Assembly: GCF_026586665.1 (NCBI RefSeq)
Contig: NZ_JAODIY010000010.1
Coordinates: 124,001 to 188,000 of the forward strand
Direction of reading: 5' to 3'
Source of the DNA: Halovenus rubra
Lineage (GTDB): Archaea; Halobacteriota; Halobacteria; Halobacteriales; Haloarculaceae
Length of the DNA: 64,000 nt
Part shown: positions 16,311 through 17,479 of the stretch, piece by piece
How the letters are laid out: every line of letters starts with the position of its first letter
How positions within the stretch are numbered: position 1 is the first letter of the stretch
The notes under the pieces: model-generated
What the model was told of the DNA's origin: nothing
What the model saw: only the letters and a program-made list of their open reading frames with translations
The model's database searches: none
Program-made: the position numbers and the translations under genes

Positions 16311-16324
16311 TTAAGGTAACCTAA
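16311..16324. promoter_or_regulatory. DtxR/SirR-type metal-regulator box, distal site
   Basis: TTAAGGTAACCTAA has near-dyad symmetry and matches the half-sites of DtxR-family operators (TTAGG...CCTAA). It lies directly upstream of, and touching, the TATA element of the gene at 16359. Its centre is 34 bp from the second box. Confidence 0.6.
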
Positions 16325-16333
16325 AATATAAAC
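16323..16333 (+). promoter_or_regulatory. TATA box between two DtxR-type boxes
   Basis: AAAATATAAAC is centred about 31 bp upstream of the ATG at 16359, so the transcript start falls inside the second DtxR-type box. Binding at either box would block TBP/TFB or the start site. Confidence 0.55.
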
Positions 16334-16344
16334 AACTGCGCTTT

Positions 16345-16358
16345 TTAGGTTAGCCTAA
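16345..16358. promoter_or_regulatory. DtxR/SirR-type metal-regulator box, proximal site abutting the start codon
   Basis: TTAGGTTAGCCTAA is almost the classical DtxR core, with perfect TTAGG/CCTAA arms. It ends at the base before the ATG at 16359, covering the predicted transcription start. Haloarchaeal SirR/Idr regulators belong to this family and respond to iron or manganese. Confidence 0.7.
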
Positions 16359-16691
16359 ATGATGACGACACCTTTGAGCAATATCCGTGATTTCATTAAC
16401 TCACTGGCGACTGAGTCGGGCGAGTACTATTTAGCCTGTGCCCGGACAGGGGACGAGCCAGTGCCAGCAGCGGGCTATCGGTTCGACTCACAGGAGCAGG
16501 CACGCGCTGGTGCTAGAGCGACCAAGCAGTACCGTGCACTGCTCCGACGCTACGACGAGCGCGCCCCACAGTACGAGATTGTCGTTTGTCGGGCTGGCTA
16601 TCAGGAGTGGCCACGCAAAGAGGACGAGACTGGGGAAAAGGAGTGTCGACACAAAGAGTCAGTCGCCGGGAAACAGGAGGGACTGGCATGA
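16359..16691 (+). CDS. Small haloarchaeal protein (DUF7552-like), putatively metal-regulated
   Basis: This 110-residue soluble protein has a compact alpha/beta core: IRDFINSLATESGEYYLACARTGDEPVP followed by RFDSQEQARAGARATKQYRALLRRYD and YEIVVCRAG. The last ~25 residues are charged and probably disordered. I recall similar haloarchaeal proteins under the label DUF7552, with no known function. Two ATG codons (16359 and 16362) are adjacent, and the first abuts a DtxR-type box. The stop overlaps the next gene by 4 bp, so the pair is one operon. A function in metal homeostasis is suggested only by the promoter. Confidence 0.65.
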   Translation: MMTTPLSNIRDFINSLATESGEYYLACARTGDEPVPAAGYRFDSQEQARAGARATKQYRALLRRYDERAPQYEIVVCRAGYQEWPRKEDETGEKECRHKESVAGKQEGLA

Positions 16692-17479
16692 AGACAACGC
16701 TGGTTGATAAGGCACTGTCGCGGGTCGCCGAGGAACGGACACTACTCCGGAACCTGCAGGCCGCGTTCAATCAGTTCGAACAGGAGGTCCGGCAGCTTTC
16801 GACGGCTCCAACCGGTGGTTCACCACGCCAGATGACCGATGGTGGTGTTACCCCAGTCTCAAAGGCGGTGGGGGCTGCGGGCAGTGGAACTGACCGTTGT
16901 CAATCAGTTTGTGAGGTGTTCGCCGAGCGTGTCAAACCACACAGTACGGAGGCAGTTGATGGCGACGAGCCAGTGTTAGAGACAGTTCGTCACGAGTTGG
17001 GCGACGAGGTAGCACTGGCACTGGCACCGACGACTGACACAAGTTACGATAAGAGAGTTAAGCAGGGCATCCTCGCCGCCAGTCAACAGCGACGGACCGA
17101 AATCGAAGCTATGTGTAATGCGCTCGACGCTGAAGAAGTCTCAGTTGAATCGGCACGGGAACTGGTCACAGTAGTAGAGCAGTTCGCTGCGGACGAGGAA
17201 CCACTCCTTTCGCTCAGTTTTCGAGCGTTACAGAGCCAACACGAGGAACTAGCAGGCTATCAGGACCGCATCAAGAACCGTCTTGAACAGCGCCAGTGCC
17301 ACCTCCATGGGTCGACGGGAGTCGACGCAAAAATCGGTGTAACCCACCTTTCGCTTGCCGAACACCTCTACAGTTCGTTCACGAGTTCGTATCCGGTGTT
17401 GTCTACGCTCACACAGTTGTGCTCGTGTTGCCAAGCGAGTCAGCGCGAAGTACGTGACCACCTTGTTCGGCGCGTCTAA
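16688..17479 (+). CDS. Helical haloarchaeal protein (DUF7260-like), second gene of the metal-box operon
   Basis: This 263-residue protein is largely helical and soluble. The start ATG at 16688 overlaps the upstream stop (ATGA) and gives the natural N-terminus MKTTLVDKALSRVAEERTLL. The pattern of an N-terminal helix, the central ETVRHELGDEVALALAPTTDTSYDKRVKQG and a later arginine-rich helix resembles the family I know as DUF7260. A Cys cluster near the C-terminus (CSCC) and scattered His residues might bind metal, but no defined motif is present. It shares the DtxR-box promoter of the preceding gene. Confidence 0.62.
   Translation: MKTTLVDKALSRVAEERTLLRNLQAAFNQFEQEVRQLSTAPTGGSPRQMTDGGVTPVSKAVGAAGSGTDRCQSVCEVFAERVKPHSTEAVDGDEPVLETVRHELGDEVALALAPTTDTSYDKRVKQGILAASQQRRTEIEAMCNALDAEEVSVESARELVTVVEQFAADEEPLLSLSFRALQSQHEELAGYQDRIKNRLEQRQCHLHGSTGVDAKIGVTHLSLAEHLYSSFTSSYPVLSTLTQLCSCCQASQREVRDHLVRRV

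Follow-up and report, generated by a model that had tools for sequence, protein, structure and literature searches.

A DUF7552–DUF7260 Gene Pair Behind Two DtxR-Type Boxes as a Probable Member of the Haloarchaeal Iron Regulon

Organization of the Locus

The DNA analyzed here (the window) comprises 64,000 nucleotides of Halovenus rubra (assembly GCF_026586665.1, contig NZ_JAODIY010000010.1, positions 124,001 to 188,000), within which two short palindromes and a TATA box precede two overlapping genes:

16311–16324, no strand assigned: box 1, TTAAGGTAACCTAA, a TTAGG-N4-CCTAA palindrome with one mismatch
16325–16332, forward strand: TATA box, AATATAAA, read from the sequence and lying between boxes 1 and 2
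16345–16358, no strand assigned: box 2, TTAGGTTAGCCTAA, an exact TTAGG-N4-CCTAA palindrome
16359–16691, forward strand: gene for a DUF7552 protein of 110 amino acids, the short form without DUF7551 (PF24422, E = 7e-31, 106.7 bits against a cut-off of 27)
16688–17479, forward strand: gene for a DUF7260 protein of 263 amino acids (PF23921, E = 1e-57, 195.5 bits against a cut-off of 27)

The promoter carries the TTAGG-N4-CCTAA palindrome that is taken here as the probable mark of the haloarchaeal iron regulon, once in exact form and once with a single mismatch, and the N4 spacing of both boxes departs from the 19-bp corynebacterial DtxR box (TTAGG-N9-CCTAA). Box 1 lies directly 5' of the TATA box and presumably covers the BRE, and box 2 adjoins the ATG of the DUF7552 gene (16359). 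The initial annotation had described two boxes bracketing the TATA box, the second touching the ATG, and both were found where it had placed them; its distance of 34 bp is right when measured from start to start, the intervening gap being 20 bp. Since the TATA box AATATAAA lies approximately 27–31 bp 5' of the ATG, a leaderless transcript would begin within box 2 or at its last bases, this box being expected to span the start site. Further downstream, the ATG of the second gene (16688) overlaps the TGA stop codon of the first (16689–16691) in an ATGA arrangement, so that translational coupling is expected. The pair is flanked on the left by a divergent gene for a TctA-family permease and on the right by a convergent gene for a NUDIX hydrolase. 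The two boxes were also considered as operators of the divergent TctA gene, a reading rejected because their geometry suits the rightward gene.

Features of the Encoded Proteins

DUF7552 is usually fused to DUF7551 (PF24420), a domain that is absent from the 110-residue window protein, which does not show the two-domain DUF7552–DUF7551 architecture, and present in a paralog encoded by the same genome (L025). DUF7552 itself is small, has an alpha/beta architecture, and contains a cysteine that never varies (Cys27); the complete set of positions invariant in the family comprises L6, R10, G21, C27, R29, P36, F42, A48, Y58, R59, L62, and D66. Confident AlphaFold2 models were obtained for the two-domain paralog (pLDDT 90.9) and for the window DUF7260 protein, which was modeled as all-helical from an alignment of genome loci only (pLDDT 88.1). 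When these models were compared with solved structures, neither DUF7552–DUF7551 nor DUF7260 produced a significant match; for the former, H-NOX (E 0.08–0.18) and YslB (E 0.31) appeared with TM below 0.4, and an unrelated viral protein ranked above them. An H-NOX or YslB fold for DUF7551 received no backing from sequence searches, and the structural matches are too faint to build on; the window protein in any event lacks that domain. Sequence searches of the PDB with both families found nothing, and no NCBIfam model matched either window protein. No signal peptide or membrane segment was apparent in the sequence of either protein, so DUF7552 and DUF7260 are probably soluble and cytosolic.

Boxes, Paralogs, and Regulators in the Same Genome

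A genome-wide scan for TTAGG-N4-CCTAA, the check proposed in the initial annotation, located boxes at siderophore-type iron uptake genes. Most exact boxes stood a few bases (often 3–5 bp) before the ATG of siderophore-type substrate-binding lipoproteins, whose N-termini bear a lipobox and which, in the one protein tested, carry PF01497. Further boxes were found at genes encoding an FAD-dependent oxidoreductase and transporters, among them FecCD and components of the Fe(III) type. A box pair also lies between a divergent gene for a siderophore-type substrate-binding protein and a gene for an ABM-domain monooxygenase (L020, 5056–5475; C5:145555–145974), the product of which resembles the haem-degrading enzymes HmuQ/IsdG, and the regulon of the siderophore genes may thus extend to haem iron. 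The second DUF7552 gene of this genome encodes the DUF7552–DUF7551 form, is followed by a DUF7260 gene, and is preceded by two boxes 34 bp apart; because this locus is paired as well, box pairs are a feature of this regulon.

Not every box stood at a gene of this kind. The genes for ComA phosphosulfolactate synthase and an MmgE/PrpD-start-like open reading frame carry boxes (L021, 4458–6734; C34:116457–118734) and have no obvious role in iron metabolism, which counts against reading the box set as an iron regulon. On a Halorientalis litorea plasmid, likewise, genes for phosphosulfolactate synthase and MmgE/PrpD lie approximately 3–4 kb from a DUF7552–DUF7260 pair. The gene for an 845-residue DUF5059 protein, in which a plastocyanin-type copper domain was recognized, also has two boxes, spaced 37 bp apart (L022, 2518–5108; C36:11517–14108); this would place a copper protein within a presumed iron regulon. 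Another box lies 18 bp before the gene of an HVO_A0261-type HTH regulator beside an operon for a substrate-binding protein, FecCD, and FecE (L018, 5250–6128; C2:206749–207627), and this regulator perhaps adds a second tier of control over iron uptake.

The DUF7260 family extends beyond these settings. No boxes were found at two further DUF7260 paralogs of this genome (L069 and L071), and on a Haloferax larsenii plasmid a DUF7260 gene (L077, 7962–8813) stands right after nosZ and the nos accessory genes, in a copper and denitrification setting. The boxless paralogs and the nos-adjacent copy together indicate that the role of DUF7260 is not confined to iron.

As candidates for the binding protein, PF01325 matched three canonical DtxR-family proteins (on contigs C43, C5, and C47) and one short form (on C1), the latter situated inside an iron cluster. 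In comparison with known structures, which produced matches to IdeR, SloR, and DtxR, one of the DtxR-family proteins aligned along its length with the IdeR/SloR class and another over its N-terminal domain. The canonical regulators scored against both MntR and DtxR models, the MntR model being the best and all scores falling below the cut-off.

Conservation of the Boxes and of the Gene Neighborhood

Two congeneric genomes conserve the gene order TctA, DUF7552, DUF7260, NUDIX, and in each of them (L300 and L301) the orthologous promoter contains two boxes, both exact, at a spacing of 34 bp in one genome and 35 bp in the other, with the second adjoining the ATG and a TATA-like element lying between the two, while the rest of the intergenic sequence has diverged. 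The same layout, with a TATA-like element in the same place, precedes a short-form DUF7552 gene in another family (L107). The initial annotation had let its proposal depend on box conservation in orthologous promoters, and both syntenic congeners exhibit it; judged by sequence comparison, their promoters read as a phylogenetic footprint of the box architecture in the window.

Of 294 genomes sampled from the class, 196, or about two thirds, encode DUF7552. Sixty DUF7552 loci from several dozen genera were compared with 19 control loci, taken from these genomes at a distance of 300 kb and totaling 270 kb. An exact box was present within 300 bp upstream of 34 of the 60 genes, 13 of which had two boxes there, and within approximately 7 kb at 55 of the 60 loci, as opposed to none in the 19 control loci (270 kb). 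In a second set of 80 named loci, 76 contained an exact box, which lay within 300 bp upstream in 30. The two sets overlap in species and include many related loci, so that these counts are not independent events, and the controls are equally related. Close box pairs in the 80 named loci were 34–37 bp apart in 73 of 87 cases; a secondary spacing of 26–27 bp, about one helical turn shorter, was seen in 11 pairs (L170–L249). A point against the iron-regulon reading is that around 40% of the DUF7552 genes lack a box in the nearest 300 bp, although most of these have one farther upstream. Such distant boxes are to be expected where DUF7552 resides inside iron operons, with operon membership being presumed.

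The gene neighborhoods were of the same character. Siderophore-type substrate-binding proteins were encoded near DUF7552 in 26 of the 60 loci and in none of the 19 controls, and the other neighbors in the 60 loci included FAD reductases (17), FecCD permeases (11), DtxR regulators (6), and DpsA (3); on annotated plasmids, the neighbors of DUF7552 were likewise iron genes. The commonest gene immediately following DUF7552 was DUF7260 (58 of 132), and both families occur in Haloferax volcanii. The median number of boxes per genome was 14.5 with DUF7552 and 6 without, as counted with no correction for relatedness or genome size. Other haloarchaeal operons of DUF7552–DUF7551 and DUF7260 (PF24422, PF24420, and PF23921) share gene order, coupled starts, boxes, and iron neighbors; unlike them, the window copy lacks DUF7551 and lies outside any siderophore transport cluster.

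Chance Occurrence and the Nature of the Metal

Haloarchaeal promoters are AT-rich, and AT-rich sequence might by itself have produced the boxes with no regulator bound to them. When the window was simulated 60 times with an order-2 Markov model, the mean number of exact sites was 0.0 (one observed) and that of sites with up to one mismatch 0.15 (two observed), and no box pair arose (one observed). Throughout the genome, the exact TTAGG-N4-CCTAA pattern occurred 28 times against one occurrence of the reversed control pattern, and over 69 genomes of the class 815 times against 82 for the control pattern. Looser matching gave no enrichment, either with two mismatches in the window (6 seen, 9.5 expected) or with one mismatch in the genome (45 against 71 for the control), and counts of this kind were accordingly left out of the argument, in which exact sites, pairs, and conservation constitute the signal. 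Although the background level of the two-mismatch scan is what chance would produce, the excess of exact sites, the footprint in the orthologous promoters, and the recurrent spacing of 34–37 bp speak so strongly against it that we assign this explanation a negligible probability.

If the boxes are DtxR-family sites, their effector might be manganese, as for regulators of the MntR/SirR type, in which case the operon would belong to a manganese rather than an iron response. The preference of the canonical regulators of this genome for the MntR model is in line with this, with the reservation that all models scored below cut-off. The genes that bear boxes argue the other way, being those for siderophore-type substrate-binding proteins, FecCD permeases, FAD reductases, and the IsdG/HmuQ-like monooxygenase, and so do the iron genes that neighbor DUF7552, leaving the manganese alternative improbable. 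In conclusion, the two genes at positions 16311–17479 very probably form an operon that belongs to the haloarchaeal iron regulon and is under DtxR-type control, and the best reading of the family-wide data is that DUF7552(–DUF7551) and DUF7260 form a conserved cytosolic component of this regulon. The single mismatch in box 1 and the lack of an informative fold match for either protein count against this reading. What the sequence establishes is the presence and conservation of the boxes, the overlap of the two genes, their domains, and their genomic setting. The initial annotation had proposed a metal-regulator promoter of the DtxR type that might belong to the iron regulon; box conservation and the boxes at iron genes lend weight to that proposal, and repression, the metal, and the protein that binds are features that we infer.

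Proposed Regulation of the Operon

Metal-loaded repressors of the DtxR family bind palindromes of this kind. In the mechanism that we propose, a regulator of this family would carry a metal ion, in all likelihood Fe2+, and bind as one dimer per 14-bp box. Occupation of box 1 would block access of TFB/TBP to the BRE and TATA box, occupation of box 2 would block the polymerase at the start site, and loss of the metal would free the promoter. The operon would be silent under iron sufficiency and switched on in iron starvation, along with the box-carrying siderophore-binding lipoproteins, and DUF7552 and DUF7260 would then be translated as a coupled pair.

Possible Roles of DUF7552 and DUF7260

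To our knowledge, little is known about the intracellular handling of ferric siderophores in haloarchaea. The best fit to the genomic context is an accessory intracellular step in the assimilation of iron from ferric siderophores or haem, such as release, chaperoning, or hand-off, a role that we put forward tentatively and rank above a regulatory or adaptor function. In a more specific form, which we regard as rather speculative, DUF7552(–DUF7551) and DUF7260 would constitute an unrecognized cytosolic system of haloarchaea that extracts iron from ferri-siderophores or haem or hands it on, with Cys27 of DUF7552 at its center and with production confined to iron starvation. It is also conceivable, if unlikely, that DUF7552 and DUF7260 together serve as a regulator or adaptor responsive to iron, through protein–protein or DNA binding, and take no part in iron chemistry. 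The all-helical, bundle-like model of DUF7260, the frequent location of the pair beside DtxR-type regulators, and the lack of a visible transmembrane segment or signal peptide would all agree with such a function; against it, no DNA-binding domain was recognized in the proteins, and the invariant Cys, Arg, and Asp residues of DUF7552 resemble a chemical or ligand site. This alternative concerns the biochemical role only and leaves membership in the iron regulon unaffected.

Relation to Known Systems and Significance

Corynebacterial DtxR/IdeR boxes of 19 bp have the half sites TTAGG and CCTAA and iron-uptake targets in common with the haloarchaeal boxes. In their consensus, TTAGGTTAGCCTAACCTAA, one can discern two N4 sites that overlap with an offset of 5 bp and bind two dimers. 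In the haloarchaeal promoters, by contrast, the two N4 sites do not overlap but stand about 35 bp from each other, and this separation may be how two dimers are accommodated. In the corynebacterial tox site, TTAGGATAGCTTTACCTAA, 9 bp lie between the half sites, compared with 4 here (PMC524172).

The haloarchaeal iron regulon is that of FerR, Idr, SirR, and TroR of the DtxR family (Leyn and Rodionov 2015, Schmid 2011, and Martinez Pastor 2024, as cited in PMC11349517). In H. volcanii, the fhu genes carry a signal of the ferR regulon, and several of the proteins they encode become more abundant in iron starvation (PMC11349517); in H. mediterranei, a similar set is repressed under denitrification (PMC11218638); the regulon itself is therefore already known. 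The genome studied here shares with it the fhu siderophore ABC transporter gene class behind a common signal as well as regulators of the DtxR family. Unlike the fhu transporters, the window genes belong to families without an assigned function. Our literature search, which covered sources other than the primary regulon papers, found no paper naming DUF7260 or DUF7552; the genes may have been listed before under their locus tags.

Conserved operators and gene neighborhood link three uncharacterized domains to the haloarchaeal iron regulon, and they suggest a recurrent operator design in which two sites, each for a single dimer, stand about 35 bp apart; in the window promoter these sites flank the TATA box. 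The breadth of DUF7552 across the class and the presence of both families in Haloferax volcanii would offer a direct entry for tests in model organisms.
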